Positions 23,641 through 64,000 of a DNA stretch of 64,000 bases are shown one piece after another. Source of the stretch: Liolophura sinensis. Its lineage: Eukaryota > Mollusca > Polyplacophora > Chitonida > Chitonidae. The first letter of the stretch is position 1. Each line of letters opens with the position of its first letter. The notes below the pieces were generated by a model. The model was not told the origin of the DNA. It saw only the letters and a program-made list of their open reading frames with translations, and did not search any database. The translations under genes were made by a program, and so were the position numbers. The DNA lies in contig NC_088300.1 of NCBI RefSeq assembly GCF_032854445.1, positions 54,722,984 to 54,786,983 on the forward strand. The letters run 5' to 3'.

Positions 23641-24140
23641 CCACCAGAGCGTAATCGGATAGAACTGGTCTGCGAGTCAAGAAGGCATCTACCGTAGAGT
23701 TGCTAATATACTTGTATCTGGCTGCCGACAACTGAACTCAAGCAACAGTTTTCCTGGATCGCCACGATAATGGCAGTCTTTTGTGAAACAAACCTGACAA
23801 AACTTCTCCTTTGCGTTCGAGTTCTTGTTCGTTTTTGTAAATCTATTTTTGATGCTGCAAGTCCAGATTGGAAGGCAACAGACTCCGTCTCCGTGTCGAC
23901 TCACTGGGCGTTGCATGTTTCAATGTGGGACCGTACAGTTTCCGGCAGGTCATGGGTGACCTTGGTGACACGTTGTTGAACAGTTCCTAACCACGACCCT
24001 CCACCTTTCGCATCTGGGTTGCAGATTCATCACTCCGTCCTCCTTGTGGTGTTGTTTGCCACGGACTCCCTGGACGTACATGTTTCAGTTTGGAGCGCAC
24101 AGTTTCCGGTAGGCCATGGGCGACCTTGGTGACCTGGTTT
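23640..24140 (-). pseudogene. Out-of-frame C-terminal remnant of RasGEF-A
   Basis: Three-frame reading on the minus strand recovers pieces matching the RasGEF-B tail: GAVQNQVTKVAHGLPETVR, TVQQRVTKVTHDLPETVR, KFCQVCFTKDCHYRGDPGK and VDAFLTRRPVLSDYALVE. They lie in different frames with stops between. A one-base shortfall near 23730, relative to RasGEF-B, throws the last block out of frame. The two VTKV/LPETVR pieces are a 165-bp tandem duplication. Confidence 0.7.
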
Positions 24141-24580
24141 TGGACAGCTCCAACCACGACCTTTCTCTACCTTTCGAATCTTGGTTTGCAGATTCATCGC
24201 CTGCGATAATGTGGTACGCTTTGCCTAACACGGAAGTTTTGTCGTCCTTCCTTACCTCCACGATTTTCTGCCTTACTTGTTGCGCAATAGTTTGGAACCT
24301 TGCCTTCGCTGTAATCCCTTTCATCGTATTATTAGTTTCATGAGTGTTCTTCATGTTTGAATTGGTCGTGGGTAGGTCGAAGAGGGGGTGGAACTTCAAA
24401 TGGTCTTTGGGAAAGTCCGTTCTCTGTTGTTGATGTTGCACCTCGTTGACTAATCGACAGAGCAGAGCGGGAAACCAGGGGATACTGGCATCCTTTACAG
24501 GCAGTTGTTTCTTCCCAGGACCAAATTTCTGTAGCTTGAAGATCAGGTTGAGCATCTTATCACACATGGTCAAGTAGAGT
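24085..24580 (-). CDS. RasGEF-A exon 8 (shortened last exon)
   Basis: Encodes LYLTMCDKMLNLIFKLQKFG, then the PWFPALLCRLVNEV block, then a Lys/Asn-rich tail ending in TGA. The last 25 or so codons are a shifted reading of sequence that in RasGEF-B reads LGAVQHRVTEILPET. Confidence 0.7.
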
Positions 24581-35154: not shown

Positions 35155-36826
35155 TTAAGCCAGACCTTGTCGGAAGCTCTCCAGCAATAGGTAATTGGAG
35201 AGAACAGGTCTGCGCGTCAAGAAGGCATCCGCCTTGGGGTTATGGATGTACTTATATCTGGCTGCTGATAACTGGACCTCCAGTAATAGTCTTCCAGGCT
35301 CGCCATAGTATGGACACGTTGTAGAGAAGCACACGGGACAAAAGTTTGTAGAGCGTCTTCTGGACTTTCTTGGAGGCCAAAGTATGCTTATTTTACGCGA
35401 CATCTTCTTTGCATTGGCATTTGTGTTCAAGTCTTTAAACTTACTGTTGGCTTTCGCAAAGGCTGCACTGGAAGCCAAAAGAGTATTGCTCTTTGCCTTA
35501 TTTCTTGGTTCCATTTGAGTTTTCAAGGCATGTGTTAACTGCATGCCTTTCTGGTCCATACTGTATCGCCGTTTGGCTAGATCTAAATCAGCAGGAGATG
35601 GGAAGCTCATCAGGGCCATTTCTGCTCTTGTCGGTTCATGACGAATCCCACCTATCGACTTCGCTGATTTGCTATCTTTCCACAGAAATTGTCCCAAAAA
35701 ACGGACAATTTTCGGTGTTCTTTTTTTGTTGGCCACAATATGCACGTGGTTCTTTGGCGCATCTTCTTCCTCTTTTTCCAATGTGTCTAGAAGTTTGCTT
35801 AGATCGTCGTCGATGACTTCGTGCTCGTAAGGTTTATGCTCTTCCTCTTCTTTTTCCAATATCAGTTCCTTCACCTTATCCACCACAGTTGTGGGCGGTT
35901 CAAACTCGGGTTCAGTCTTGCCGGACAGTTTCTCTAATAGTGTCAGTTTCCTAGGTTTGGCTGGTTCAGGTCGCAGAGTTTCCGGTAGGATCTCGGTAAC
36001 TCGGTGCTGGACAGCCCCCAGCATTGTTTCATCATCATCATCGCTGCCAACCTTGACTACATTCACTACTTTCTCCTTTATTTTATCAAAAGTACTTTTG
36101 TTGCTTTCCATCTCCTCACTGTGGGAAACATCTCTTTCTAAGGCCTCAAAGGCTTGAGCATCAATATCATCTACAGCTTCATCTGCACTTTCACAGCTTG
36201 AGCTGCCACTGTCATACAATGGTAACTCCTCGACCGGCGTAATCTCCCGATGACTCTCTTCAATGTTTGTAATCTCCTGAGAATTCTCTTCAACTTGTGT
36301 AGTCCTCTGAAAGCCCTCTTCAACGTATATAGTCTTATGAGAACTTACTTCAACTCGCATAGTCTCCTGAGAACCTTCTTCAACTTGTCTAGTCTCTTGA
36401 GAACCTTCTTCAAGGTGTGTAGTCACATGAGGACCCTCGTCAACGTGTGTAGTCTTCTGAGGACCCTCTTCAACTCGTGCAATTCCCCGATGACCCTCTT
36501 TAAATTGTGTAATGCCCCGAGGACCCTCTTCGGCGTATGAAGTCTCGTGAGCACCCTCTTTAACTTTCTTGTTTCTGAGTTTCATAATTGCGCTTCGCAG
36601 TCCTTCTAACTTTTTGAATCTAGGTTTTCTTTTGACTGGCCTCCACTGATATTTCCTCGAACCGCATCTGTCTTGATGATGGCGTACCTCATTCACTAGT
36701 CGACATAGAAGGGCAGGGAACCAAGGGATACGAGCTTCCTCAGAGGGAACACATTTGGCTCTTGGACCAAACTTGTACAGCTTGAAGGTCAGCCTGAGCA
36801 TCTTATCACACAGCGCCAAGTAGAGT
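35155..36826 (-). CDS. RasGEF-B exon 8 (long last exon)
   Basis: 557 codons including the stop, after a CGCCACAG acceptor. It begins LYLALCDKMLRLTFKLYKFG, finishes the RasGEF domain at PWFPALLCRLVNEV, then runs through a basic stretch, the decapeptide repeats (36225-36540), a long acidic disordered region and the conserved Cys-rich C-terminal block. Confidence 0.85.
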
Positions 36827-39800
36827 CTGTGGCGAAAAAGCATCGGAATTCATCATCAAATAACACAAATACCTTCCTTCTCCCGACGAGTCATGAATTC
36901 ATCAATTTTATTTTTACCAAGTCGAGCTATATTTAGTATTTACAAACGCGTATCTTGTTAATATACACAAAAAACACTTGTCTTTCTAACACAACAACAA
37001 ATGTGTTACCCCAGCACAAACATGTTTTAAACAAATGTGAAATACACATTTTTAAGTTACAAAATAATACTCTGACATAACTTTGTGTTCATACAACATA
37101 AGTGTTTTCTGGGCGTATTAAAGCGTGATAACGAATTTGTATGTAAGCCAATAGCGTCTACTCGCTATCTGGCTATTCCGACTATGTCAAAATCTCAAAA
37201 AACATGCTTGTCGTATCGGCTTCCATAGTCGCGGTCATATTTTAATCCATTAATCATGCCTCTTCAGTTTGTCATTCACACACAGCACAGCCAAAAACGA
37301 AAACTCAAGCCTCTAGAACTTACTGATAGATGTGGGGATCACTTTTCTCAAGGTACTCCCAGACAACCCCCAGACGGTAGACGGAATAAAACTGTAGACC
37401 TCTCATCACATTGACAAAGCTGTTGAAATTCCGGATTATCAAGCAAAATTCGGCCACCTGTCCAGCAAAGGAGAGTAAAAGTAATGGCAGGAATGCATCA
37501 ATACATTCGGGCTCAGCGTTGTAATTCACCTTACATTTGGTATCTAAAGAAGCACTTTCAGAAGCACATAAAGGCTTTAAAATGAACGTTTTTGATGCCA
37601 ACATTTAAGTTTTTCTGATAAAAAATTCATCCAACTTCACAAAACACTCTCAGTGGCAGTATAACGTGAATGAATCAATCACAATCAAGCAAAAAAAGTG
37701 TCACCTGAAAAATGCTAAACTTTAGGTGAAATAAAGTACATCTATATCGTCAGGCATGAATGGCAATTTCAATCAATGACAGAACGAAGTTACTGAAACT
37801 TTGCATTGGCCAAAAGAATTCTCCAAGATTTTCACAAACTTCATCATTCCTATATATGCACCTACTGGAGACCGAGAATGGCTGTTCAAGATAATAATCA
37901 ACATTGCTGTTTTCAATAGATATGCGACGGCATTCCCACGAAAGTCGGACGTCATATCCCCTTCTTTACTATACTAGTACTATATACTACTGAATGATTC
38001 TGATTTCATCAAGACGTACATTTCATTAAACGGCATTTGTGTTTTTATTTTACCTTGATGAACAATTTGAGAGTTTCCAAACAGTTCTCATAGCTCGGCT
38101 GATCCAGCACTTCGGTGGCCACTAGCCGGGGAACTCGTTTCGCCCAAGCCGCCATCTTCTCTAACGCCAAGCATTCTGTGCTCTGTGTTTAAACATAATA
38201 CAATATATGAAAACAGGATAAACGTAGATTTCAGTTACATATGTAAATAATGGTAAACTATCATAATATTACAAATGAAATTCTAAGCTTCACGGTCGGG
38301 AAGGACATTTATATTGTTGACCATCGATGACTTCACAGGATAACGCACTTTTCTGCCTGTGCGTTTGATTGTTATAAAAATCCAGTGAAGTACATAAATT
38401 ATTGAGTACTAGTACATATAACAGAGCTATTCTGAGTGTTAAATATTCTTATATTCTGAATTTAGTCTTTTTTAAGTATATTATATATCAGATGGCCATG
38501 TCTTCATTTTATAATGCTTTTCTTTTAATACCAAGTGTTAAATTTTCTGAGAAGAAGCAAAGTACGCCGTCACAAGCTTCCGACAGAGAGCAGCTTCAAT
38601 ACGTACATTTGAGAATTCGAGTTTAATTGCAGTCTTATGTTGACGACCTATTTACCTGTATTTATGAAATCTCTGAAATTGCAGACAAGTAAAAACTGTC
38701 TGGTGAGAGTGCACATCCAGGAAAGTACACAGCCCAGTGTACAGATAAGATAGTGCCCATGCAGTTAATAACCAGGCAAGTTAAAACACATGATTTTATT
38801 GCTGTTAAACTTCATACTTAACTTTTCAAGAATTATACGATGACGGTCAGATCGGTAGCTGGAGAAACCTGGATTGCAAGGCTTTAAACCATCGGCCTTT
38901 GCTAAGAAAGTGGCAAATAACTAAGAACTTCCCCACATGTTGCCGACAGATACACGGTATTGATAGAAGACAGCCGGTTAACTAACATTAAAGTTCGCAA
39001 TCGGCCACATGAGCGTGTGCGACCGCTTTTGTACCCAGGACGACGTGTGGTGGGGTGGGGTGGGGGGTGGAGAAACCGGCCAGCGGGCAGGGGAAACCCA
39101 CGACCACGCGCAGGCTTCTGGAAAACCTTCCCACTTATCACCGGAGAAGAAGCCAGTATGAGCTGCACTTGAACTCATAGCGACCGCATCGATGAGAGGA
39201 ACACAGGTAACTTAGAGCGCACGGGTAAGTTAGTGTACAGGTAACTTAGTGCACAGGTAAGTTAGCGCACAGGTAAGTTAGTACACAGGTAAGTTTATGC
39301 GCATGTAAATTACTGTACAGATAAGCTATTGCACAAATAAGTGAGCATTTACTCGTATGAAGCTAGGTGCTGAGGACAGTGCCAGCCTGGTCAAGTTACT
39401 CTGGGTTAACAGCCACAGAAGGTTCCTGTCCCTCACGCTCAGCTGCATGGCGATGTCACCGGCGAGAAAATTACGCACATCACCAGGTCTGAAATGTGAC
39501 AAAGGAAATGATGGACCAACAATAGGAAATACCTATGCATAATTATTATACCTCACAGAGCGATTCTCGATTTCCATCGGTCGAGAGATCACATGATCTT
39601 GCGCAATATATGATGTAAAACGATCACGCGGGTTAAAGTACAACCAGAAAAGGTACACTGATTTTTCGGTATAATAAAACTATAATTTCGGTATATAATG
39701 TGCATGCTGTGGGGTGAGATAACAGAAAATGTCACTTCCTTCAAGCTGATAATTTCTGATACCCCCATCCCACAGCATACACTATCTGTATCAAGTTACA

Positions 39801-42800
39801 CGTTTTCAATACTCTGCTTTAAGTTTGGACAGAATTACAATTTCGCGAGTGCGTATAGACATTAAATTTCAAAGTGTCCTCACCCGATGTACAAAACGTC
39901 CTGACGTGAGGTGCCAAAGGCCCTGACCTGATGCACAAAACGTACGGACATAAAGTGCAAAAGGCCCTGACCTGGTGCACAAAACGTACGGACATAAAGT
40001 GCAAAAGGCCCTGACCTGATGCACAAAACGTCGTGACTTTATATGCAAACGACCCTGACCTGGTGGACAAAACGTCCTGATCTAATGTGCCAAACGTTCT
40101 GACCTGATGTGTGAAACTTCCTTGTGGGTTCCCGTAGGATTCTGCCTTGGTCTTACGCGTTGTCTTTGCACTTCTCCACACTCCGGACATGGTGTCAATG
40201 ATTCAGTCTCCAGCAGATCAGATTCTATCATTAGCAATGATAACCAAAATGTACATTGATCGTTTATATCATGACTTCTGTAATAACAACAATACCTCAC
40301 CATCATGTGCCAGATGATACAAATCCTAGGAACACACATTCAAAATGGTTTTCGGCGCGAGGTCATCATGAAACCGACGCAGCTTAATTTAGCTTACAAT
40401 ATTATATCGTTGATAACATTACTTGGTTTTTCCAAATACCACCATATTCATAATAAATCCACCTTGCCGATCACAACGCCTTACCCAGGGCCAGCGCTCG
40501 CTCTTTTATTACTCAGTAAATGCATCATGAATATAACTCTTCATGAAAACTGATTTATTTGATTGTTGTTTAATACTGTAATCCAGAATATTTCAATCAT
40601 ACGCGGCGGTCAGTTTTGCGCATCGAAGACAGAATATGTTTGAGTGGGACTTAAGTACCGGAAGAAAACTATTAGGATTTGGCAAGAAACTGTAACACTT
40701 GATTTTCACCCACACATCTAACTCAATCTGTATAGCATAGTGCATGATTACCAATCTTTTTTTGAGCTTCATCCAGGAGTTTGTTCAAATCTTCTTCAGC
40801 CTCGCTTATTCCATCGTCCCAAATCCATCTGAACATAAAACTCAGTTACAAAAACTTATCTCTACTATACTTTATTTTACATTATTGTCCTCTACTCAAA
40901 TACATGCCAATAACAGTGAAGTTTACGGGTAAGAGAAAAAGGACAGACTAGAGAAAATTGACCAGAGAAATCCTGTCAGGAAGGTCGTCAATACGTCCAT
41001 ATTGGTGTCAGGCGGATATCTACTCTACATAAGACGACACAGATCCTGCACAACCAGTAGAAAAAGACAGCTCTTGTTTCAAATTTCGTTTTATGATAGA
41101 CAACGAACATGGTCCATGCACTTGAAAAAGAAATACCCACGTGTATTCGGTATCCCATCCTCCTGAAACTTTTGGGGCTTTATCCTGTCTTTTTCTGTAG
41201 TGCAGCATCTGTATAAAAAAACCACAATGCATACCACATGTTAAATGAAGGTTATGTCTGGCTTTACCGCATTTTTAATGCAAGCCTTTTCTTCAAAGCT
41301 TTTATCGCTCATAATCCTAAATAGACCTTGAAGATTGAAAACCAACATTATGTATTTGTATTTGTATATTAGTCAACTGGAGTTGCATCGTATTCTTGAT
41401 TCAGTGCTTTTAAACATAATTATCTCTTGCGGATGTACTTAAATTATCAACAAAAGATTTGGTCGAAAACTTTGAAAGTTTTGCCAGTGAAAGTACATTC
41501 AGGATAAAGTGCTTGTGAGATATAGGCCGACTGTGGTTATATGAGAGGTGATTCGGCGATGGATTGACCAGATGTTCAGGAGGACTTAACAGAACGCTCT
41601 CAGGAGGGCTAAAAGAAGCACTGGCCTTGTGTGAAGATATTTAAGAAAGACTGACAGTACCGCTTACCTTGCCTCAGGATATTTAGAAGGACTGACAGTT
41701 GCACTTACCTTGTGTCAAAATATTCAGGACTGAAAGCAGCACTTATCTTGTGTCAAAATATTCAGGAGGGCTGAATGTAGCACTTATCTTGTGTCAGAAT
41801 ATTCAGAAGGACCGAAAGTAGCACTTACCTTGTGTCAGAATATTCAGGAGAACAAAGCAGCCCTTACCTTGTGTCAGAATATTCAGGAGAACAAAGCAGC
41901 CCTTATCTTGTGTCTGAATATTCAGGAGGACCGAAAGTAGCACTTACCTTGTGTCTGAATATTCAGGAGAACAAAGTAGCACTTACCTTGTGTCAGAATA
42001 TTCAGGAGGACCGAAAGTAGCACTTACATTGTGTTAGAATATTCAGGAGGACTGAATGTAGCACTTATCTTATGTTAGAATATTCAGGAGGACCGAAAGT
42101 AGCACTTACCTTGTGTCAGAATATTCAGTAGGACCGAAAGTAGCACTTGCCTTGTGTCTGAATATTCAGGAGGACTGAATGTAGCACTTATCTTGTGTTA
42201 GAATATTCAGGAGGACCGAAAGTAGCACTTACCTTGTGTCTGAATATTCAGGAGGACTGAATGTAGCACTTATCTTGTGTCAGAATATTCAGGAGAACAA
42301 AGTAGCCCTTACCTTGTGTCAGAATATTCAGGAGGACCGAAAGTAGCACTTACCTTGTATCTGAATATTCAGGAGGACCGAAAGTAGCACTTATCTTGTG
42401 TCTGAATATTCAAGAGGACCGAAAGTAGCACTTACCTTGTGTCAGAATATTCAGGAGAACAAAGCAGCCCTTACCTTGTGTGAGAATATTCAGGAGGACC
42501 GAAAGTAGCACTTACCTTGTGTCTGAATATTCAGGAGGACTGACAGTTGCACTTATCTTGTGTCAGAATATTCAGGAGGATCGAAAGTAGCACTTACCTT
42601 GTGTCTGAATATTCAGGAGGACTGAATGTAGCACTTATCTTGTGTTAGAATATTCAGGAGGACCGAAAGTAGCACTTACCTTGTGTCAGAATATTCAGGT
42701 CTGGATAGGCTACACCATGCAGTTGAGACTACTCTAATGCTACTGCACAGTGATTAGTCTCTTCTCGTGATGAATAAGATAGAAAAGCTCGGAATGAAAT

Positions 42801-43907
42801 GATGTCGAATTTAGTCAAGCATTTAGACTATATTCGTACGGAATTTATGGAAGTGAAACATAATGCAAAGAGTCAAGCAATTGTAATAATACACTTTAAC
42901 AGTTAAATAGCTATAACCGGGAAACTTTTCAAACGTCGTGTGAAGATTGTGACCATGGAAACCTCACCTCTTGTATAATCTTGAGTTCCTTCACACTCAG
43001 GTCTCTTCGAGCATAATGACGATCGAATAAGTCGTTGTCATTCGCGAAAAGAACAGATGCCGGCGGCTTCCATAACCAAGGACAAGAGGATGACTTGCGG
43101 GGAATTCTGCTCTGATTTCTGTCATCAACCACGGTGGTAGATTTACTTTTCAAAAAACCAACATGGTGTATGGTTTTACATAGGGCTAAAATTTCCTCGT
43201 CTTCGCAGAAAGACACCCTCTCCTTAGGCACCACGTACTCCTGAACAACAATCGGGTGTATCTCGTCCAGACACGTGCATATGGTGGTAGACTCATCGCT
43301 GAGGTCAGATAACGGCAGTGGGTCAAGCAGTGGCTCTGTCTGAACAGCTGATTCCGTCACCTGACGACACAGGAAGGGATACGTCACGTATTTGCTGATG
43401 CATCGTAATTCTCTGCCGTCTTGCCTTCACTTTGTCTGTGTTACTGTGTTTATGGTGCAATTTGGTTGCAGCATGTTTCCACCGGCCCCAGTCGTTTTAG
43501 GCGTACACATTTCGTATAAGGTAATGTTTTTTGGTGTCAGTGGTCACAGCCATACGTTTGAGGCGATCATCTATCACCAAGATCCGAATAAACTTCATCG
43601 GCAATGTTTTCCTCAACTTCAAACCGGCGTGATCAAGTGGGCCTTGTTTTCCGACCCCCTTATCTCCGTCATTGCTCTCCTTAGCGTCACTCAATGAGTC
43701 TGCATCTACTCCTTCTGATATCTGGGCCTCATTTTCTATGTCACTTATAATCAATTCGTTCTTCGTCAGCCCAAGCCAGACCTGACTGACGGGTTTCCCC
43801 GATGAGTTTATCTGCAAAAAGCGTCCTTCCACTAGTACTTTGTGTTCTGGTGTATCCAACGTCTTGTATTCGCTGCTCAGCAGACTGTGTAAACTGGGTT
43901 TGCTCAT
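35155..43907 (-). CDS. RasGEF-B: RasGEF (Cdc25-type) domain protein, eight exons
   Basis: Paralogue of RasGEF-A, about 1090 codons. It opens with MSKPSLHSLLSSEYKTLDTP and the same strand-rich block (KVLVEGRFLQINSSGKPVSQ). The RasGEF domain has AGDIAMQLSVRDRNLLW, KMAAWAKRVPRLVATEVLD, IRNFNSFVNVMRGLQFYSVY and ARIPWFPALLCRLVNEV. The long last exon adds ten imperfect decapeptide repeats (EEGSQETRQV type), an acidic region, and a Cys-rich end (FCPVCFSTTCPYYGEPGR) followed by FLTRRPVLSNYLL. Exon 1 has frame lesions relative to RasGEF-A, so the continuous product needs confirmation. Domain homology predicts GTP loading of a Ras-type GTPase at membranes; the substrate is unknown. Confidence 0.75.
36225..36540 (-). 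repeat. Coding decapeptide repeat in RasGEF-B
   Basis: About ten tandem 30-base units encode EEGPRGITQF, KEGHRGIARV, EEGPQKTTHV and similar. They are absent from RasGEF-A, so the array expanded after duplication or was lost there. Confidence 0.9.
37324..37457 (-). CDS. RasGEF-B exon 7
   Basis: 134 bases encoding VAEFCLIIRNFNSFVNVMRG and on to EKSDPHIY; acceptor GGACAG, donor GTAAGT. Confidence 0.82.
38054..38182 (-). CDS. RasGEF-B exon 6
   Basis: 129 bases encoding STECLALEKMAAWAKRVPRL and on to LKLFIK; acceptor AACACAG, donor GTAAAA. Confidence 0.8.
39066..39200 (-). mobile_element. SINE-1 internal fragment in RasGEF-B intron 5
   Basis: Minus-strand body from the GCGGTCGCTATGAGTTCAAG end to GGTTTCCCCTGCCCG, lacking the normal tail, with a G-rich run (GGTGGGGTGGGGTGGGGGG) next to it. 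Confidence 0.8.
39205..39350 (+). repeat. Short tandem repeat of CACAGGTAAGTTAG
   Basis: About nine units of roughly 16 bases; several read CACAGGTAAGTTAG exactly, a full consensus 5' splice site on the plus strand. It lies just outside the donor end of RasGEF-B exon 5, antisense to that gene. Confidence 0.85.
39353..39488 (-). CDS. RasGEF-B exon 5 (RasGEF domain start)
   Basis: 136 bases encoding PGDVRNFLAGDIAMQLSVRD and on to SSAPSFIR; acceptor CATTTCAG, donor GTAAAT. Confidence 0.8.
39855..40117 (-). repeat. Donor-derived minisatellite at RasGEF-B exon 4
   Basis: On the minus strand the exon 4 end CACATCAG/GTCAGAACGTTT is followed by repeated versions: CACCAGGTCAGGGTCG, GCATCAGGTCAGGGCC and GCACCAGGTCAGGGCC. 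The basic unit is about 21-22 bases, often in dimers of 43-44. Confidence 0.8.
40104..40224 (-). CDS. RasGEF-B exon 4
   Basis: 121 bases encoding SDLLETESLTPCPECGEVQR and on to EVSHIR; acceptor TGATAG, donor CATCAG/GTCAGA in phase 2. The PCxxCG block aligns with RasGEF-A. The donor is the first member of a repeat array that follows in the intron. Confidence 0.65.
40555..40618 (-). mobile_element. SINE-1 tail fragment
   Basis: A decayed minus-strand match to the SINE-1 3' end (TTTATTTGATTGTTGTTTAA, CAGAATATTTCA, then the GGCGGTCAG block). Confidence 0.5.
40752..40828 (-). CDS. RasGEF-B exon 3
   Basis: 77 bases encoding WIWDDGISEAEEDLNKLLDE and on; acceptor TGTTCAG, donor GTAATC. Confidence 0.75.
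41141..41208 (-). CDS. RasGEF-B exon 2
   Basis: 68 bases encoding MLHYRKRQDKAPKVSGGWDT and on; acceptor TATACAG, donor GTGGGT. Confidence 0.75.
41590..42705 (-). repeat. 41-bp satellite in RasGEF-B intron 1 carrying consensus 5' splice sites
   Basis: About 27 units. On the minus (sense) strand each contains GAATATTCTGACACAAGGTA, so most copies present ACAAG/GTAAGTGC, close to the ideal donor. Some copies read GATAAG instead of GGTAAG, destroying the site. No parent exon is recognised. Confidence 0.92.
42968..43907 (-). CDS. RasGEF-B exon 1, reading frame disturbed
   Basis: It starts at MSKPSLHSLL and ends at a GAG/GTGAGG donor like RasGEF-A, but is 940 bases long where phase 0 at both ends needs a multiple of three. 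Against RasGEF-A there is one extra base near a run of six A (about 43530), one missing base near 43500 that creates TAA, and another shift near 43390-43430. Downstream the frame is clean (KYVTYPFLCRQVTESAVQTE and on). Confidence 0.6.
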
Positions 43908-44335
43908 CTCTGTCTTGTGTTACTTTTCGCTCACCACGAAATCCTCCATCTCCACGGTGACGTTAACAGTGTCGTCAGAGCACTACGTCACAAATGAGTG
44001 TCTAATCGTAACGTTGTACATCTTCCATATGGGGCGTTAGAAACGTCACAGTTCATGTGTGATGAAAACATTTTTCACTATGACGTAAAATGGCTTTTTA
44101 CTTAAAGTCGAACATTGTCGGCAGCGCCTCGGTATATCATACAAAGTAGAACTTTGTGACGTTATGCAATTCATTTTACTCCGCGAAGGTGACGTTTTGT
44201 ACAACATGTATAGATCTATACATTCATAGATGTATGAAGACTACCCCTGTAAGCCCAATTTCACAAACTTTTGTAAATCTTTCAAATCCAAATTGATATG
44301 CTTTCAAGTTACGGTAAAGTACTCCTGAGACTGGT
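43908..44335. other. Upstream of RasGEF-B; no gene seen
   Basis: Would contain the RasGEF-B promoter and 5' UTR. No clear core promoter element is visible. Confidence 0.35.
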
Positions 44336-45198: not shown

Positions 45199-46050
45199 TC
45201 AATGCATGCAAAAACTCTCCGACGCATAGAAAGTCAGTCGTTTGATGAGATGACATGGGATTCGTTGCCATTTATCTTGGAGAGCGAACGCTAGTTCTTC
45301 TTGGTTGGCTGCAAGGTGTGGCCGTTGTCTTACTCGACGACCCATGATATCCCTAAGGTGTTCTAGGGGGGACATATCTGGGGAACTCGCAGGCCACAGC
45401 AAGACGTTGACGTCCAGGGCGTTCTGCACAACTCGAGCTGTATGGGGTCTGGCGTTGTCATGCTGGTACAGGACACCACATGGCTGCTGTTGAAGGAATA
45501 ACAGGACAACAGGACGTACAATTTCATCCACGTATTGTTGAGCTGTTAGGTTCCCGTAGATTATGGCCAGTTGTGTCCGTTCCTCTCCACACATCCCACC
45601 CCACACCATCACGCTGCCGCCACCACCTCCTGGACGCATGATGCAACCGTTAGTTCGCCTCTTCGACGGTGAATTCACTGTCTGCCATCCGCTCGGAACA
45701 GGCAGAAACGGCTTTCATCCCTGAAAACAACACGTTGCCAATCACGTCGCACAATTCGAGCCCATCGCAACCTCTAGCAGCGATGTTCGGCTGTCAACAA
45801 CTACCCTCTGAATGTCGATAGGCCAAAATTCCGAGAGCCACGAGTCTCCTGGACACGGTCTGCCGACTGACCGGGTTAACTAAGGCAATGATTGACGACA
45901 ACGTCACTGTCAGGAAGTGGTTCCTCAGGTGTAAGGTGCGCAGGTACCCGTATTCTCTGGGCGTTATTACTCTAGGCCTGCCTGTTCTTGGCCTGTCCGA
46001 TTTCTGCCATGTCCGTCTGTAACGTTGTATCGTTTGACACAGTTACACAA
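45199..46050 (-). pseudogene. Decayed Tc1-like transposase
   Basis: The minus-strand reading recovers a helix-turn-helix part (TGRPRVITPREYGYLRTLHL; NPVSRQTVSRRLVALG), then WARIVRRDWQRVVFRDESRF with the first catalytic Asp, GGGSVMVWGGM, YQHDNARPHTARVV with the second Asp, and WPASSPDMSPLEHLRD with the final Glu. The pieces need frame changes near 45670 and 45800, and there is an in-frame stop near 45681. The second Asp and Glu are 31 residues apart instead of the usual 34. It is a Tc1/mariner relic, unlikely to be active. Confidence 0.85.
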
Positions 46051-52600: not shown

Positions 52601-55600
52601 CACTGTTCCTGAATATGAAAAGTTCAGAGAGTTCAACATCACGTTAATAAGTAATAGTTACTGCGTGTCTCAGGATATGACACAAAATATAATCTTTATA
52701 GGGTGGAAATCTGTAAATCTGTAGTAATGATCAGGAGGGTTGGATGGTTTTGGGTTTCTCCCACCGTTCTCTGCCTGGTTTTCTCCCACCATATTACTGT
52801 CCTTTAAGTGAAATATTATTGAGTGCAGCTTAAAACGCATAAAATAATAGATAGATAAATAAATAAATAAGATACACCTAATATCAATCAACAGCAAGGA
52901 AGCATTTAATGACATGCACTGTATTTGTAACAGACACTGACAGGATGTATGAAGAGGTTCACCTGAAGGAGCGGAGAAAGCCCCAAAATCGGCTACACTA
53001 CATCAGATGAACATGATACCAGGTATTTCGAGAATTTAATATGAAACTGGCAAACCATTAAACACAGATATATTAACCTGTATGAAGCAAAAACAGTCCA
53101 TCACATGTGACTTCATTTTTTCAGCTCACCCTTCTGTACTACAGTCCATCCAGCAGGGTGATTTGTTAGTGAAAAATTCCATGAAATAAACGTGATCGAC
53201 TCCAACTGTTGTAACATGAACCTGCTGTTTTTTAACGATGTGACACACAAGAATTCAAACTAAAGTGTCGGGTAAACATTGCGACTTTTGTGCCACAGAT
53301 AAAACATACTTTGTCAAAAATCCACTACAGGCGTTCATTATAAAACCAAACTGGCCAGCTATGAACTACACAACATTGTAGTTGGAAAGTAGGTATGTTC
53401 TCACCATAGATTAGGATAATGTCTACCATGGATGAATCTACTGTAAAGGTATCCAAGCCAGCTGTATTCACTAAATATGATGGTTCAAGATGCATCTGAA
53501 CCTTGTCCTTGGACAGCCCCTAATTAGAGATAGAAAAAAAAGACGTAAACCACCAGGATGACTGATGCAGCCCTGCATATAAGTACAAATATATAAACTT
53601 CATTGATAAGAATAGGATGTTCGAGACTGCAGTGAGAATACAAATATGTGGCAAGTTGAGAAGGCTCATTTGTTTGTATTACTATCACCTCTTCACATCA
53701 GAAAAATCCTCCTTTAACACCTATATATATGTACATATGTTTTTTGATTGCGGCTCAACTCGATTCTCAAAAATTTTCATTTCTTGGATGGCAATCAGTT
53801 TATTGATTGGAGGACGCTGGAGTGCCTGCCCTGCATACCACTGGTAACTTTTCCACAAAATATGCAAAATATGCACACCATATTGGTGAAAGACAAATGT
53901 GCTTCAAAAGAACTGCACAGTCGAGGAACACTGACTGTTTCTTGTCACCATTTAAAAGGTTCTAGAGCAGTGAGCGTGAGGGACAGAATTTATATCATCT
54001 CTGTTCAACTCTCAATGTAAGCGTACTTGGATCTGCATTGCTGAATGGAATGCAATGCTGAAACCTAACTTAGTCATCACAAAAGATTAGACATGCAACT
54101 CTCACTGAAAAGCCACAGCTTTATTTTCAAATTAAAATGACAGCAAGCTAAAAGTAAAAAATGGTCGACATGACGGTATTAAAATCTGTACCTTTTCAGA
54201 CTTTGAATAATCTATTCAAACCTATTGCACATGAATGGATAAGAGAGCCAGAACAGACATATTATGCAGGAGTGGACCCTTGTATTAGGTGGGCTTACGT
54301 AGTAAGCTGGCTGTTCCAGTAGGACACCCGTGGCTATTCTTATAGCACACACTCTCCACAGGCAATACTCCAGGGATGGCTCTTTGTCCTGAAACTCCAC
54401 AAACGCCTCCAACATGTCAGCCTTACTCACAAAAAATGCCTGTGGTAAGTGAAAAGAAGAAACAAAAGGCACTACATGAAACAGGGTAACAGTACAGAAA
54501 GATTACTTTGTATTAACAAGTTTGACACTGTTGTAAGATGGATTATTTATTTATTTATTTATTTGATTGGTGTTTTATGCCGTACTCAAGAATATTTTAC
54601 TTATACGACGGCGGCCAGCATTATGGTGGGTGGAAACTGTTCAGAGCCCGGGGGAAACCCACGACCATCCGCAGGTTGCTGACAGACCTTCCCACTTACG
54701 GCCAGAGAGGAAGCCAACATGAGCTGGACTTGAACTCATAGCGACCGCTGTGTCATCATGCTGCGCTAGCGCGCTAACCAACTGAGCCACGGAGGCTCCT
54801 AAGATGGATTAAAATCAACACTTAAAAATGTTTGTACTACAGGCAATTCATATTCTGCTTGTCCTCAGCCCTTACTGTCAAAACTGCCCTTAGTCACAAA
54901 CATGCACCAGTACTCCTCAATTTTTGTTCCCGGGATTCACATTTCATGCTACCAGAACATGTACGCACCTGACAGATGTTGGGGGTATTTCCAATACATC
55001 CTGATGCTGATAACCACAAGAAATCGATACAAATAATGTTTATATGTCAACTAGAACGCTCTAACTTAGTTTCTTATCCCTACCCCAACAGCTATATCTC
55101 CTTACTACTTACCATTATACAGAACTACATTACATCAATGGTACATGACATTATTAAATGTATTTATATACAGGCCATGCAGTCTGCTACACTTAACCCT
55201 CATGCTTACTTGCCAATCAGTTAGCCCCGATGTTTATGTGCCAGTCAGTTCGTCCTGATGTTTATTTGTCCATCAAGTAATCCTAATGTTTATTTGCCAA
55301 TCTGGTAGCTTTAACATTTACGTGCAGTCAGTTAAGCGCGGATGTTTACTTGGCTGTCTCTTAGACCTGATATACATTTGCCAATCTGGTAGCTCTGAAG
55401 TGTATATGTCAATCTAGTACCCTTCACATGTCAAACTGGTAGCCCTGATGTTTTTATGCCAATCTGGTAACCCTGATATTTATATGTCAATCTGGTAGCC
55501 ATGACGTTTATACGTCAAACTGGTGGCCCTGATGTTTATATGTCAGTGTGGTAGCCCTAATGTTTCTACGTCAGTCTGGTAGCCCTGATGTTTATTTATT

Positions 55601-58600
55601 TATTTATTCATTTGACTGCTCTTTCTCACCGTACTGAAGAAAATTCCACTTATATGACTGTGGCTAGCATTATTGTGGGAGGAAACCCACAATCATCCGC
55701 AGGTTGCTGCAAGACCTTCCCACTTACGGCCGGAGAGGGAGCCAGCATGAGCTGGACTTGAACTCACAGCGACCGCACTGGTGAGAGGTTTCTGGATCAT
55801 TAAGCTGCGCTAGTGCGCTAGCCAATCTCCGATGTTTATATGCCAACCTAGTAGCCCTGATGTTTATATGCCAACCTAGTACCCCTGTTGTTTATATGTC
55901 AACCTAGTAGCTCTGATGTTTATATGCCAACCTAGTAGCCCTGATGTTTACATGCCAATCTGGTAGCCCTGATGTTTATGTACCAATCTGATAGCCCTGA
56001 TGTTTATATGCCAATCTGGCAGCCCTAATGTTTATATGCCAACCTGGTAGCCCTGATGTTTACATGACAACCTGGTAGCCCTGATGTTTATATGCCAACC
56101 TGGTAGCCCTGATGTTATGTACAAATCTGGTAGCCCTGATGTTTATATGCCAATCTGGCAGCCCTAACGTTTATATGCCAACCTGGTAGCCCTGATGTTT
56201 ACATGCCAACCTGGTAGCCCTGATGTTTATATGCCAACCTGGTAGCCCTTATGTTTATGTACGAATCTGGAAGCCCTGATGATTATATTCCAATCTGGTA
56301 GACCTGATGTTTATGTACCAATCTGGAAACCCTGATGTTTACATGCCAATCTGGTAGCCCTGATGTTTACATGCCAATCTGGTAGCCCTGATGTTTATAT
56401 ATCCATCAGTTAGTCCTGACATATCTATGACTACACCACCAATCTGGTAGCCCTGATGTCTATGTGCAAATCTGATGGCCCTGATTTCTCAATGCAAATC
56501 TGCAAAGTCAAATTTCATTACAGTTCTAATCTTAAAATCAACCATTTCTGCAGGGAAAACTGTTTAAGTATTACTGGAATCAAGGTACTTCATACGCTCA
56601 CCTGAACTGTTGTTTCACACCATATGGTAACATGACGTTCATGGCGAGTCAGAAGGCCAATTTCCCCGAGCACATTTCCTGCAGACAGGTAATCAACATT
56701 CATGACGGCAGAGCCTTTATCGGTCACATCTGAGGTCAGATTTTGAGGGGATTCCATCTGCAAACACAACAATTGTTGCTCGATGTGTAGCATCTACATA
56801 CACACTGTATATGGGGAAAGTGACAGTCGATGACAACCATGCCACATGAACCACAACAAACACAGGAGGTGCACATACAACAAGTACAATGTAGAAGGTA
56901 AGATGATTGCCAGTACAGTGAAGCCTCGCCCTAGGATGCCTTGATATCACGTGACCCAAATCTTGTCCCCCCAAAACATGCGGTCTACTTTCATGTGAGA
57001 ACGGCTGAAACCATAAATGGATCAAAATTTTTCACATATGTTTGAAAGCATATGTAAATAATGCAGCATCATTTGCTTCATTTCCTACAGTTAGTGTCTG
57101 ATCCATGCGTTATTTGATATTTTATGCTTAAGCTTTTGAACATCACATGAGTGTAATCGAAATGAAATGAATTTTTCTAATGGAATAATGCAAGAGGTTA
57201 TACCTGGTTACATTTCCTTGCGACTGAGTTGAATTCCAAACGCACATGCGTGTGATGTTGTTGTTGCAGCATTACTTCTGCGTGTTTGGCCTCGTCAGCA
57301 ATAAGAACACAATTTGCTCACTGTGACAGGCATACCTCATAAAGGGATTAATATAGCTTTAATCAGCTTATTGAATGGCTATAAAACAAGGTGTGAAACT
57401 GTAGGGAGTGAGATTTGGCTTACCAGCAAACTGACATGTGAGAGCTGAGATGAGCTCACTCAAACATTTGAGAATGGCTTCCTAATGTTTTCCTCTTTCT
57501 TTATTTAATACATTGATTTAGCATGATATACATTAAAATAGAATTTTGAATCTGTGGAATCTAAGTTCCAGGAGTTACTTCTGATACGAGCAGACATGGA
57601 CGAATTGGATACCAAATGCACTGTAGCTGTTTCTATTTAAAAATGAAGTGGATGAAACTACGTTACTTGAATTCATGCAGCTTGTGGAAATGTTTAACAT
57701 GCACCCAGTTCTGTAGATCAGCTCGGGCCCGTGATTGGGTGATGCGAGGCTAGCTCCGTAGGATGACTCATAGAACAGTGCTGAGATATTTGTGGTCTGT
57801 ATGTGAAAACTTGTGTACCGTAGAATACTAGTTGAATCTTCAGGAAACAAAAAATCTCAGGCGTTTAACTTAATAGTAAACTAATTAACAATAACAATGC
57901 ATCTAAAACTTCGTTCAATGTCAAAATCATAGCCTATAATATAGACTGTACATGTAACCCTATTGTATATACTGGATCCCAAGGTCATTTCATCATAGCG
58001 ATAGGTAGCCTATAATGCGCTCAGGAACCTGTCCCCCATGCTGGGTGCTATAGTGAGGTGATACTGTAGTAGGTACCTCATTCATGAGTTCTTGTAATCG
58101 TTTAATACCGTACCCTAACTAAGCCACAGACAAGGATGTAGATCCCTTCGGTGAAATCTCCTCGCCGCATGATCACATCACCGTAACTAAAGTTCACCAT
58201 GACAGCTCGCTCCTGAAATAACAAACAAAAAACAATTCATCAATGTAGCTCACATTAAATCAATAAGACAGCACTTCAGGTCATCCCGCATTGAGAGATG
58301 GAGTAGGGTAAGAGAGGGTAGGCAGAGGTGGAAGGTAAGGCGAGGGGGCTGTGCATATAATTCTCCTTCGTTTCCTTTTTGATAATGTCAAAAATGATTT
58401 GTCAAAACGATGTAACAATGTAATTCACTGGTTTATCCTTCTACTTTAGTACTGAAGCACCATATAGGTCTACTTGTGTGGAACAGCCACAGGAATGTAT
58501 AACTTGGACACTAGGAAGTATAAGCTAAAGGAAAGTAGATATTTGGGTGCACTGAATAGGTCAATGTGACTGATAATGGAGGCAGATTCAATGGAAATAA

Positions 58601-61600
58601 GAGGAGGGTGTGTCTCAAATTTTAACAACCAGAACCTCAAAATGGAGTTTTTTTCAGGTCCAGACTGAGTTCATTTATATTTAAAACGCTGACCATAACC
58701 TGGTATTGAGTTTAATTCCACTTAAGCGACTGGTAATTTTGTGAACGTGAAAGTATATATGAAGTATATATACAAAGTTTAATTTCATTTGAGGTTCATT
58801 TCTGATCATGATTTTACTGTTGACACATATGTGTACATATAGTATTACAAGTATATTAAATTATCCTGGTCATAGATATACATCATTATATCAATGAAAA
58901 GAAAGGAACTCACAAAGAGTATATCAAAAGTGAACATGTTTGAAATAGAGATAAGGCTTATCCCATGTAGATTAGAGGTGAAACAGTTATAAACGATGTA
59001 TGTTTGTTATATTAAAAGAAAGAAAGAAAGAAAGAAATATTAAGTAACAAATAAACAACATGAGCAAAAATCAAAGACAGGACTTATAATGATCAGGGAT
59101 ATATAATAGTTATAAACAGTTATAAAACATCTATGTTCAGTTGTCGGTTATTATATTAAAAGAAAAAAGGAACTGCAGTGTAACAAACATTATATTAAAA
59201 GTAAACAAACAACATATGCAAAAAACAAATCTGTTACTCTGAATATACTAAAAGTAATGAACCTGTCTTTTCAGAAAAGCCAAAGGAGCCTCGACTCAGT
59301 TCAATGATTAGCTTTGACCTAATTTATATACATTATCTGTAAATACACTTATGCTTCAGGAAGAGGGAAGTAGGTGCATTTTCCAAATCAGTTTACAATG
59401 TAACAGTAAAAGGATACATTTTTCATTAACCAAAGTTCCACCAGGCTCTGTCCGGTTTCCTCCTATCATAATGATGGCCGTTGTCGTATAAGTGAAATAC
59501 TCTTGAGTACGGCGTAAAACACCAATCAAATAAATAAATAAATATCCACCTAAGTTTTCATGGCATTATCTATTTTTCACGGATGCATCCGTTGATGATC
59601 GCAGTCAACTGCTCAATGCTACACAAATATTTTCAAATTAAATTGTTTTTATCCAAAAAATTGAGTATTTGTACTAGAAAAACACAAAACTGAGTGTTTA
59701 TCATTGCATTATTCCACCAAATATCGAGGTCTAAAATCGACATGTATTAATCCCTGCACCCATAAAACTGATGATCCTTGCAAAAGAGAAAAACTTTTGC
59801 TGTGAATATGGCCCTAAACACCAATCAATTAACCAAGCATTCTGCAAGTATTGCAAAAACAATACATGTGCATGTACTCTACCGGTTAAAGCCATCAGTG
59901 ATGTATCTGATGAGGGAGTGCCAGCTGGCTGTGATGTATTTGATGAGGGAATGCCAGCTTGCTGTGATGTATTGATGAGGGAGTATTAACAGCGTACCCT
60001 GCTATATCTGATGAGGGAGTGTTAGCTTGCTGCGATGTATTTGATGAGGGAGTGTTAGCGTGCTGTGATGTATTTGATGACGGAATGCCAGCTTGCTGTG
60101 ATGTATTTGATGAGGGAGTGTTAGCTTGCTGCGATGTATCTGATGAGGGAGTGTTAGCTTGCTGCGATGCATTTGATGAGGGAGTGTTAGCCTGCTGTGA
60201 TGTATTTGATGAGGGAATGCCAGCTTGCTGTGATGTATTTGATGAGGGAGTATTAACGGCGTACAGTGCTATATCTGATGAGGGAGTGTTAGCTTGCTGC
60301 GATGCATTTGATGAGGGAGTGTTAGCGTGCTGTGATGTATTTGATGACGGAATGCCAGCTTGCTGTGATGTATTTGATGAGGGAGTATTAACGGCGTACA
60401 GTGCTATATCTGATGAGGGAGTGTTAGCTTGCTGCGATGTATTTGATGAGGGAGTGTTAGCGTGCTGTGATGTATTTGATGACGGAATGCCAGCTTGCTG
60501 TGATGTATTTGATGAGGGAGTGTTAGCTTGCTGCGATGTATCTGATGAGGGAGTGTTAGCTTGCTGCGATGCATTTGATGAGGGAGTGTTAGCCTGCTGT
60601 GATGTATTTGATGAGGGAATGCCAGCTTGCTGTGATGTATTTGATGAGGGAGTATTAACGGCGTACAGTGCTATATCTGATGAGGGAGTGTTAGCTTGCT
60701 GTGATGTATCTGATGAGGGAGTGTTAGCTTGCTGCGATGCATTTGATGAGGGAGTGTTAGCCTGCTGTGATGTATTTGATGAGGGAATGCCAGCTTGCTG
60801 TGATGCATTTGATGGGGGAGTATTAATAGCTTACCCTGTTGTATTTGATGAGGGAGTGTTAGCTTGCTGTGATGTATTTGATGAGGGAATGCCAGCTTGC
60901 TGTGATGTATTTGATGAGGGAGTGTTAGCTTGCTGCGATGTATTTGATGAGGGAATGCCAGCTTGCTGTGATGCATTTGATGAGGGAACATTAATAGCTT
61001 ACCCTGTTGTATTTGATGAGGGAGTGTTAGCTTGCTGCGATGTATTTGATGAGGGAATGCTAGCTTGCTGTGATGTATTTGATGAGGGAGTGTTAGCTTG
61101 CTGTGATGTATTTGATGAGGGAATGCCAGCTTGCTGTGATGTATTTGATGAGGGAGTATTAATAGCTTACCCTGTTGTATTTGATGAGGGAGTGTTAGCT
61201 TGCTGTGATGTATTTGATGAGAGAATGCTAGCTTGCTGTGATGTATTTGATGAGGGAGTATTAATAGCTTACCCTGTTGTATTTGATGAGGGAGTGTTAG
61301 CTTGCTGTGATGTATTTGATGAGGGAATGCCAGCTTGCTGTGATGTATTTGATGAGGGAGTATTAATAGCTTACCCTGTTGTATTTGATGAGGGAGTGTT
61401 AGCTTGCTGTGATGTATTTGATGAGGGAATGCCAGCTTGCTGTGATGTATTTGATGAGGGAGTGTTAGCCTGCTGTGATGTATTTGATGAGGGAGTGTCA
61501 GCTTGCTCTGATGTATTTGATGAGGGAGTATTAATAGCTTACCCTGTTGTATTTGATGAGGGATTGTTAGCTTGCTGTGATGTATTTGATGAGAGAATGC

Positions 61601-63291
61601 TAGCTTGCTGTGATGTATTTGATGAGGGAGTGTTAGCCTGCTGTGATGTATTTGATAAGGGAATGCCAGCTTGCTGTGATGCATTTGATGAGGGAGTATT
61701 AATAGCTTACCCTGTTGTATTTGACGAGGGAGTGTTAGCTTGCTGTGATGTATTTGATGAGGGAATGCCAGCTTACTGTGATGTAATTTATGAGGGAGTG
61801 TTAGCTTGCTGTGATGTATTTGATGAGGGAGTGCCAGCTTGCTGTGATGTAATTTATGAGGGAGTGTTAGCTTGCTGTGATGTATTTGATGAGGGAGTGC
61901 CAGCTTGCTGTGATGTAATTTATGAGGGAGTATCATTACATGTAGCTTACCCTGGTGTATTTGATAAGGGAGTATCAATACATGTAGCTTACCCTGGTGT
62001 ATTTGATGAGGGAGTGCCAGCTTACGGTGATGTACTGGATGAGGGAATGCCAGCTTGCTGTGATGTATTTGATGAGGGAGTGCCAGCTTGCTGTGGTGTA
62101 TTTTATGAGGAAGTATCAATACATGTAGTTTGCCCAGGTGTATTTGATGAGGGAGTGCCAGCTTGCCGTGACGTATCTGATGAGGGAGTGCCAGCTTGCT
62201 GTGATGTATTTGATGAGGGAGTGCCAGCTTGCTGTGATGTAATTTATGAGGGAGTATCAATACATGTAGCTTACCCTGGTGTATTTGATAAGGGAGTATC
62301 AATACATGTAGCTTACCAGGGTGTATTTGATGAGGGAGTGCCAGCTTACGGTGATGTACTGGATGAGGGAATGCCAGCTTGCTGTGATGTATTTGATGAG
62401 GGAGTGCCAGCTTGCTGTGGTGTATTTTATGAGGAAGTATCAATACATGTAGTTTGCCCAGGTGTATTTGGTGAGGGAGTGCCAGCTTGCCGTGACGTAT
62501 CTGATGAGGGAGTGCCAGCTTGCTGTGATGTATTTTATGAGGGAGTATCAATGCATGTAGCCTACCCGGGTGTATCTGATGAGGGAGTGCCAGCTTGCTG
62601 TGATGTATTTGATGAGGGAGTGTTCACTTAGCCTAAAATATTTTATGAGGGAGTATTAATAGCTTACCCTGATGTATTTGATGAGGGTCTCATCCCCCTG
62701 CAGCCAGGCGACATTTTTCAGCAGCCTCTCTGGGGGTGGTGGAGTCATAAGTGGTGGGGCTGTGAGTAACCTCTTCATCTTCATCTCAACCATCTGACAA
62801 CAGATAACAAACTTGTAAGTCAAACCATATTCCTGCCCAACCTGTCTCCTGTTGGCTTTGCAGCATATACAGTGCCTCAGGTTAGCTCTTTCCTGCTTTA
62901 AATGAATTTGTACACTTAAGGCAAATAAGAATTCACAAAACTGGCAGCTACTTCATGCCATAACAAAAGTTGAAAAGCTTCAAAGAGCACCTACATGTAA
63001 CTAGACCACTTTGGCTCCACTTCAAAAAGATTTCATTTTACTGTGCTCAGCATATATCACGTTGTTACTGTCAAAACACACAATGCTGCCATGTGGATCT
63101 GTAATCTGAATTTGGTTTCTGTACCTACTGATGTTTACTTACAGTTTCTAGCTCTGTGCTTTCTGTATCATCCAGTATGCCATCTTCGTGCAGTCCTCGT
63201 ATGGAGTCTCTCAGGGTGTTCAATACTGAGCGTACTGCCTGTCGACTTTTCACGGACATAGCCACATCAGGATGCTGCTTCTGAAGTAAAC
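49195..63291 (-). CDS. SLC9C-like sperm Na+/H+ exchanger, C-terminal ten exons (5' part outside the window)
   Basis: Ten exons join in frame to about 510 residues; the membrane part lies beyond the window. Residues from LLKNVAWLQGDETLIKYI through FSYGDVIMRRGDFTEGIYIL, YLSAGNVLGEIGLLTRHERH and AFFVSKADMLEAFVEF form a cyclic-nucleotide-binding domain with its GEIGLL cassette and a following Arg. After it come LEYCLWRVCAIRIATGVLLE, VYTKEIYVGPYYIPWTATEL and a low-complexity Ser-rich tail. A C-terminal cNMP-binding domain followed by such a tail fits SLC9C1/sNHE exchangers, which alkalinise sperm under cAMP and voltage control. HCN or CNG channels are less likely given the long tail. Identity rests on domain pattern and recall, not on a search. 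Confidence 0.65.
49914..49993 (-). CDS. SLC9C-like exon i
   Basis: 80 bases encoding an acidic stretch KKNDSKTQEEEEGAFTATQQ and on; acceptor TTCCGCAG, donor GTATGA, phase 2. Confidence 0.7.
50300..50464 (-). CDS. SLC9C-like exon h
   Basis: 55 codons, SDDIKPVILVVPGDEASKNI and on to KLEERN; acceptor GTTTTTGCAG. The AAT/GTTAGT donor was chosen to keep phase 0 with the next exon. Confidence 0.7.
50650..52000. other. SLC9C-like intron h; nothing further defined
   Basis: Non-coding AT-rich intron. A very decayed SINE-1 tail may lie at about 50655-50710; no other structure is supported. Confidence 0.35.
52002..52006 (+). promoter_or_regulatory. Possible CCAAT box (inverted)
   Basis: ATTGG within TCTCATTGGCTGAGAG, about 45 bases before the ATG of a possible plus-strand exon. 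Weak alone, but well placed for a promoter. Confidence 0.25.
52051..52366 (+). CDS. Possible 5' exons of a nested plus-strand gene
   Basis: ATG at 52051 opens MEDAMDSVIYVSSAVFRLYL, with donors at 52110 (GTATGG) and 52115 (GTGAGG). A second segment, 52243-52366, follows a long polypyrimidine acceptor and encodes HGVILRGNIPLQSVLWVEAE and on to WLCSP before a GTAAAC donor. Only the weaker 52110 donor keeps the frame between them. No downstream exon is identified and the protein is not recognised. It lies in an SLC9C-like intron on the opposite strand. Confidence 0.3.
52526..52608 (-). CDS. SLC9C-like exon g
   Basis: 83 bases, TVKDVYTKEIYVGPYYIPWT and on to ELEFV; acceptor ATATTCAG, donor GTAAGT. 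Confidence 0.75.
52728..52872 (+). mobile_element. Diverged SINE-1 3' half
   Basis: TGGTTTTGGGTTTCTCCCACC, TCTGCCTGGTTTTCTCCC, AAGTGAAATATTATTGAGTG and a TAAATAAATAA tail match the SINE-1 body and tail. Confidence 0.75.
53405..53519 (-). CDS. SLC9C-like exon f
   Basis: 115 bases, GLSKDKVQMHLEPSYLVNTA and on to DIILIYG; acceptor TAATTAG, donor GTGAGA. Confidence 0.75.
54299..54439 (-). CDS. SLC9C-like exon e
   Basis: 47 codons, AFFVSKADMLEAFVEFQDKE and on to EQPAYY; acceptor TACCACAG, donor GTAAGC. Confidence 0.8.
54546..54799 (-). mobile_element. Full-length SINE-1 with exact target duplication
   Basis: Minus-strand copy from GAGCCTCCGTGGCTCAGTTG to the TAAATAAATAAA tail. The 12-mer TAAGATGGATTA flanks it at 54534-54545 and 54800-54811. 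Lies in the SLC9C-like intron between exons d and e. Confidence 0.95.
55205..56490. repeat. 28-bp satellite in an SLC9C-like intron
   Basis: Roughly 35 units of GGTAGCCCTGATGTTTATAT plus GCCAACCT or a close variant, with a SINE-1 embedded. On the minus strand each junction reads CTACCAGGTTGGC. Similarity decays at both ends. Confidence 0.93.
55591..55828 (-). mobile_element. SINE-1 inserted in the 28-bp satellite
   Basis: Minus-strand copy from a decayed head (GGCTAGCGCACTAGCGCAGC) to a TAAATAAATAAATAA tail; satellite units resume on both sides. Confidence 0.9.
56602..56757 (-). CDS. SLC9C-like exon d (cNMP-binding cassette)
   Basis: 52 codons, MESPQNLTSDVTDKGSAVMN and on through GEIGLLTRHERHVTIWC to TVQ; acceptor TGTTTGCAG, donor GTGAGC. 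Confidence 0.8.
56800..58100. other. SLC9C-like intron; nothing further defined
   Basis: AT-rich intron sequence with short ORFs (for example 57575-57850 minus) that show no domain or splice support. Confidence 0.35.
58114..58212 (-). CDS. SLC9C-like exon c (cNMP-binding domain)
   Basis: 33 codons, ERAVMVNFSYGDVIMRRGDF and on to LVCGLVR; acceptor TATTTCAG, donor GTACGG. Confidence 0.8.
59010..59037. repeat. (AAAG)n microsatellite
   Basis: About five AAAG units within a wider AT-rich area (58880-59240), where TTATATTAAAAGAAA-like phrases recur loosely. Confidence 0.75.
59438..59541 (+). mobile_element. 5'-truncated SINE-1
   Basis: From CCAGGCTCTGTCCGGTTTCC through GAGTACGGCGTAAAACACC to the TAAATAAATAAA tail. 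Short TCCACC matches flank it. Confidence 0.85.
59896..62667 (-). repeat. 2.8-kb splice-donor-derived satellite (33/36-bp units)
   Basis: About 80 tandem units. On the minus strand the commonest unit reads CTCATCAAATACATCACAGC then AAGCTAACACTCC (33 bases). A 36-base form reads CTCATCAAATACAACAGGGT then AAGCTATTAATACTCC. Both copy the border of the adjoining exon, which ends ATCAAATACATCAGG and continues GTAAGCTATTAATACTCC. Because unit lengths are multiples of three and free of stops, frames of 870 and 626 codons stay open on opposite strands; they are not taken as genes. Confidence 0.92.
62668..62793 (-). CDS. SLC9C-like exon b
   Basis: 42 codons, MVEMKMKRLLTAPPLMTPPP and on to DETLIKYIR; acceptor GTTGTCAG, donor AGG/GTAAGC. 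Its donor border is the founder of the 2.8-kb array. Confidence 0.8.
63143..63291 (-). CDS. SLC9C-like exon a
   Basis: 149 bases encoding LLQKQHPDVAMSVKSRQAVR and on to TESTELET; acceptor GTTGCCAG, donor GTAAGT. Its acceptor border is the founder of the 50-bp array. Confidence 0.75.
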
Positions 63292-64000
63292 CTGGCAACA
63301 TATGACATATTCACAACATCAGGATCGAGGTTCTGAAGTAAACCTGACAACATGACATATTCACAACATCAGGATCGAGGTTCTGAAGTAAACCTGACAA
63401 CATGACATATTCACAACATCAGGATCGTGGTTCTGAAGTAAACCTGAAAACATGACATATTCACAACATCAGGATCGTGGTTCTGAAGTAAACCTGACAA
63501 CATGACATATTCACAACATCAGGATCATGGTTCTGAAGTAAACCTGACAACATGACATATTCACAACATCAGGATCGTGGTTCTGAAGTAAACCTGAAAA
63601 CATGACATATTCACAACATCAGGATCGTGGTTCTGAAGTAAACCTGACAACATGACATATTCACAACATCAGGATCGTGGTTCTGAAGTAAACCTGACAA
63701 CATGACATATTCACAACATCAGGGTCGTGGTTCTGAAGTAAACCTGACAACATGACATATTCACAACATCAGGATCATGGTTCTGAAGTAAACCTGAAAA
63801 CATGACATATTCACAACATCAGGATCGTGGTTCTGAAGTAAACCTGAAAACATGACATATTCACAACATCAGGATCGTGGTTCTGAAGTAAACCTGACAA
63901 CATATGACATATTCACAATATCAGGGTCGTGGTTCTGAAGTAAACCTGAAAACATGACATATTCACAACATCAGGATCGTGGTTCTGAAGTAAACCTGAC
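63292..64000 (-). repeat. 50-bp splice-acceptor-derived satellite, running off the window
   Basis: Fourteen visible units. On the minus strand each reads GAATATGTCATGTTGTCAG then GTTTACTTCAGAACCACG and ATCCTGATGTT. The adjoining exon starts GTTTACTTCAGAAGCAGC and ATCCTGATG after TTGCCAG, so the unit is the acceptor plus the first 28 or so exon bases. The true array length is unknown. Confidence 0.95.

Follow-up and report, generated by a model that had tools for sequence, protein, structure and literature searches.

A probable mirage-type minisatellite at a 5' splice site of an SLC9C1-like gene in the chiton Liolophura sinensis

A tandem array of 82 units was found inside an intron of an SLC9C1-like gene (a gene of the sperm sodium-proton exchanger kind) on the minus strand of a 64,000-nucleotide stretch of Liolophura sinensis DNA (hereafter the window; contig NC_088300.1, here C6). 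The array is very probably a minisatellite of the mirage type, which arose by tandem duplication of a 5' splice-site segment into the intron, expanded there and is removed with the intron. Mirages are minisatellites lying over exon-intron borders and are described, in excerpts of PMC3087553 and PMC3902484, from the amphioxus genes Adh3, TnC and PGBD5 and from the globin genes BflGb6 and BflGb9. With the chiton array, a structure of this kind is found in a mollusc.

The exon border and its array

Features of the locus were placed as follows (a slash marks a splice border here and below):

63143-63291, minus strand: upstream SLC9C1-like exon (GLLQKQHPDVAMSVK...), from homology and sequence, with the ends placed by eye
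62668-62793, minus strand: exon ending IKYIR, aligned by phmmer with residues 906-948 of sea urchin SLC9C1 (chain 8xq8)
62652-62687, minus strand: true border unit of 36 bases (20 exon and 16 intron bases), donor AGG/GTAAGC, score 8.8
59898-62687, minus strand: border-derived minisatellite of 82 units, from TRF and unit parse
58213-62667, minus strand: array-bearing intron of about 4.45 kb, from flanking-exon homology and acceptor sequence
58114-58212, minus strand: following exon (ERAVMVNFSYGDVIMRRGD..., cyclic-nucleotide binding domain region), 3' end provisional

As judged by homology, the minus-strand gene is SLC9C1-like. The exon at 62668-62793 gave a best E value of 3.4e-10 against sea urchin SLC9C1 (phmmer). 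Its end and donor read ATCAAATACATCAGG/GTAAGC on the minus strand, and its last 20 bases (62668-62687) make up the exon part of the repeat unit. The acceptor before the exon start at 58212, TTTGTTATTTCAG, is plausible. Homology of this following exon is weak when taken alone (i-Evalue 0.052 for the stretch; E 4.9e-4 against human SLC9C1, chain 9ydf); the exon carries the protein on in register (IKYIR/ERAVM), matching the residues that come next. Since the junction is in register, the donor at 62668/62667 fits, and homology together with the junction to 58212 supports the exon end at 62668 that was proposed in a preliminary description of this DNA. Apart from one poor match (29% identity, E 0.68, internal stops), a genome search with the two-exon peptide returned only the gene's own two exons; thus, no second gene copy was seen.

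The border had been described as repeated about 80 times, and 82 units were indeed counted from 62687. This count takes in the true border as first unit and leaves 81 decoys. Units were parsed in transcript orientation, and the parse runs to 59884 with a last, degenerate unit. Unit lengths were 33 bases (62 units), 36 bases (12 units), 42 bases (7 units) and 32 bases (1 unit), the 42-base class being absent from the preliminary description. TRF gave periods of 33, 135 and 168 bases, the latter two of which are higher-order, and block duplications are visible in the array, e.g. as a 324-base spacing in the proximal part. The array is known here from one assembled haplotype.

Every unit repeats the terminal 20 bases of the exon together with the beginning of the intron. 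The best array copy agreed with the border at 35/36 bases, the maximum in 30 Markov shuffles being 22, so that the units match the border better than random sequence does. Agreement with the exon stops after 20 bases: none of the 81 units agrees at the 21st and 22nd bases, and a few isolated columns beyond the 22nd exon base do agree. For the 36-base form, GTAAGC had been reported in about 11 copies. Retention of GT in this form was confirmed and the count was corrected: the 12 36-mers comprise 8 with GTAAGC (true border included) and 4 with GTACGC. In total, GTAAGC occurs in 15 units (8 36-mers, four 42-mers and three 33-mers).

Proposed origin and the decoy donors

According to the preferred model, a 36-base segment across the 5' splice site of the SLC9C1-like exon would have been duplicated in tandem into the intron. 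Expansion to 82 units would have followed by slippage or unequal exchange of single units and blocks, a course that is conjectural in its details. A derived 33-base unit, with GT lost and 3 bases shorter, would have become the commonest by amplification, and the array would be spliced out as part of the intron. The exon end resembles that of sea urchin (LIDFIK in sea urchin, LIKYIR in the chiton), which argues for derivation of the array from the exon rather than of the exon from the array.

GT at the donor position was present in 12/12 36-mers, 5/7 42-mers and 3/62 33-mers, i.e. in 20/82 units. Among the decoys, GT is kept in 19/81, so that many but not all copies carry the splice signal. Donors were scored with a matrix of approximate human frequencies; on this matrix 11 decoys equalled or exceeded the true donor's score of 8.8, namely seven 36-mers (8.8), three 42-mers (8.8) and one 42-mer (9.3).

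60834-62316, minus strand: stretch with the 11 decoys that equal or exceed the true donor's score (seven 36-mers, four 42-mers)

With these figures, the earlier picture of one intron holding many decoys copied from the real donor, most of them weak, was upheld. The weakness of the 33-base form lies also in position -1 (G to A), not in GC alone. Splicing presumably uses the exon-proximal donor, since no other donor adjoins the exon. Translated in the gene's frame, the intron gives V, S and Y and then a stop four codons past the donor (IKYIRVSY, then stop); a protein made with a decoy donor would therefore be truncated ahead of the cyclic-nucleotide binding domain. The locus offers a natural test of spliceosome choice, with one donor among eleven equally good-looking neighbours over almost 2 kb.

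Loss of GT from most units had been tentatively attributed in the preliminary description to selection against mis-splicing. GC was present in 59/80 units examined, and none of four copies in a 72-base donor array of the same gene (see below) keeps GT at the copied place, as read by eye; both observations are in line with selection. A neighbour-joining tree argues against it. The tree was built from 80 units (32-mer and terminal unit left out; few columns) with the donor columns left out, and the dinucleotide states were explained by about 5 changes, where shuffled labels needed 19.1 on average and never fewer than 15. In this set 57 of the 59 GC units are 33-mers, so the GC state is tied to one unit form, and 54 of the 61 33-mers carry ACA/GC or GCA/GC. 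With about 5 changes on the tree, most GC copies look amplified and not mutated singly; they are likely amplified copies of a few events. Moreover, all 12 36-mers keep GT, and the 11 decoys whose matrix scores reach that of the true donor have themselves been multiplied. No sign of selection on the donor dinucleotide was seen in the 80-unit tree, which with its few columns is a weak test. Selection as the cause of the GT loss is therefore unsupported and considered improbable.

Coding and dispersed-repeat explanations

The array might instead encode a long in-frame protein repeat. In favour of coding, 81/82 units have a length divisible by 3, a frame of 887 codons is open over 59968-62631 on the plus strand, and its translation as a whole protein passes the Pfam cut-offs for NOD2_WH (34.4 bits, cut-off 23.1, E 2.4e-8) and LRR_6 (23.7 bits, cut-off 23.4). 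However, no single stretch passes the NOD2_WH or LRR_6 cut-off alone, and a repetitive translation can probably give such scores when summed over many repeats. The plus-strand frame over the whole array holds 8 stops, as compared to a simulated mean of 13.4 and a minimum of 6 in 300 simulations with differences placed at random. As 8 stops lie within the simulated range, the open frame is not unusual, and it was taken as a by-product of the repeat. In the gene's own reading frame the array is not open, the stop four codons after the donor coming first; on the minus strand, stops over the array numbered 25 in frame 0, which differs from the gene's frame, and 6 and 52 in the remaining two frames. 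Coding is accordingly held to be very unlikely.

Least credible of all is the insertion at the border of a dispersed satellite or mobile repeat from which the exon end was captured: tRNA-SINE-like pieces do occur elsewhere in the SLC9C1-like gene, but the exon end resembles sea urchin, and with one 201-base array probe against the 609 Mb genome (simple repeats skipped; counts are lower bounds) 19/19 matches listed lay inside C6:54782881-54785670, which is the array itself, and none at other loci.

Further border-copying arrays and other features

For the SLC9C1-like gene, 17 borders were placed by homology and by eye. Copies of the border were found in the adjoining intron at 4/17, two donors and two acceptors, with scores of 51, 76, 93 and 88 against own shuffle maxima of 24, 31, 30 and 25, respectively. 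The other 13/17 placed borders scored below their own shuffle maxima and had no copies. Hence, the gene appears to have four border-derived arrays. The second one begins in the window:

63264-64000, minus strand: border-derived array whose 50-base unit repeats the 3' splice site (CAG/GTTTACTTCAGAA) of exon 63143-63291, from TRF

This array goes on outside the window at L009:288-1239 (L009 and L010 are further stretches of sequence), after about 290 bases without recognised copies. With a tolerance of up to 6 mismatches, 34 copies were recognised (the true one among them), and all 34 keep CAG. Two more arrays lie in L010, a 72-base one derived from a donor and a 74-base one derived from an acceptor. 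In the 72-base array the exon portion by itself scored 19 against 22 for shuffles, and only the whole border beats the shuffles.

A random-seed test was worked out after the arrays had been seen. Arrays were merged by hand to 6 (55198-56502 as one, and 63264-65239 as one despite the gap of about 290 bases); the set excludes three short TRF rows (1.9 to 2.2 copies) from L009 and L010. Under random seeding, with 17 to 40 borders assumed, the expected number of border-spanning arrays among the 6 is 0.10 to 0.24. P for four border-spanning arrays was 4e-6 to 1.1e-4; with the given array left out, P for three was 1.2e-4 to 1.4e-3. By length, arrays make up 23% of the mapped gene stretch, so 4/17 borders in arrays is no enrichment, and the enrichment therefore rests on counting array seeds. 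Donor-like sequences were not enriched in arrays generally, either in the window plus the following 40 kb (23 arrays, Fisher p 0.14; 4/23 with p<0.1) or across 14 evenly spaced 10-kb stretches of contigs C1-C4 (39 arrays, p 0.97); only consensus units are scored in this test, in which the array at 59898-62687 itself gives p 0.67.

Splice borders could be preferred birth places of minisatellites in the chiton, by a border-tied seeding independent of cephalochordates in which donor copies decay and acceptor copies are kept. We regard this proposal as tentative and rather doubtful. If true, it would point to a seeding process at borders, e.g. stalled spliceosomes or R-loops on nascent RNA. Four arrays in one chiton gene suggest a process wider than amphioxus.

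Acceptor and donor copies differed in the retention of their signals. AG was kept in 34/34 copies of the 50-base array (true one included) and in 5/8 upstream copies of the 74-base array, whereas donor copies are mostly without GT (19/81 keep it in the array at 59898-62687, 0/4 in the 72-base array); the places concerned in L010 are 2190-3060 and 8476-8781. This asymmetry may be a chance of amplification. At L009:1610 (C6, upstream of the window), the next intron upstream, which holds the acceptor array, apparently begins with a GC donor, CTGG/GCAAGT.

The likeness to amphioxus mirages, as far as excerpts of PMC3087553 and PMC3902484 describe them, extends to several traits. The unit spans the exon-intron border (here 20 exon and 16 intron bases), and the array adjoins the real border inside the intron, at 5' or 3' sites in amphioxus and with the true border as first unit in the chiton. 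Many, not all, copies keep AG/GT, and the chiton unit length falls within the reported range (10-72 bases in Adh3, 150-160 in BflGb6). Amphioxus mirages are reported in these excerpts as not disturbing splicing. Unlike them, the chiton array is hosted by a mollusc and not a cephalochordate, and four arrays occur in one gene; BflGb6 has 6 and 3 units in the same excerpts, as against 82 with higher-order blocks here. No border-spanning minisatellites outside lancelets were found in the literature (open-licence PMC papers). As in intron gain by tandem duplication of AGGT-containing segments, described in an excerpt of PMC3087553, the duplicated segment holds a splice signal; unlike in that process, no new intron is shown, and the chiton copies lie inside one existing intron. 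The array may also bear on the proposal that repeats of this type give rise to new introns.

Diverged tRNA-SINE-like copies with AAATAAATAAA tails lie at 54560-54800 and 55600-55830, one of them inside the 28-base array 55198-56502, which it splits in two. A literature search with six SINE-like strings gave no match, and nothing was found by Rfam and tRNA scans. Eight haemocyanin beta-sandwich domains were counted in the genome and none in 14 control genomes (0/14); the family is typical of molluscs, and its presence supports a molluscan origin of the DNA.

Two tandem paralogous minus-strand genes, RasGEF-like by eye, occupy 23600-30925 and 35155-43919, and their homologous introns hold different arrays (29420-29916 and 41600-42699). 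The latter, in an intron of the second gene, comprises some 27 units of 41 bases, with 16 minus-strand donor-like sites, among them several AAG/GTAAGT donors scoring 12.6 on the approximate matrix. Comparison of the intron borders with the intron gave 20 against 23 and 14 against 25 for shuffles; as neither border matches above shuffles, the 41-base array was not counted as a mirage. At 39202-39335, the plus-strand unit of a 16-base array contains CAG/GTAAGT (12.8), on the strand opposite to the local gene. A 30-base repeat at 36241-36531, within the long open frame 35155-36849, is probably a coding decapeptide repeat, and a DDE_3 transposase fragment lies on the minus strand at 45199-45714 (Pfam E 3.4e-7).
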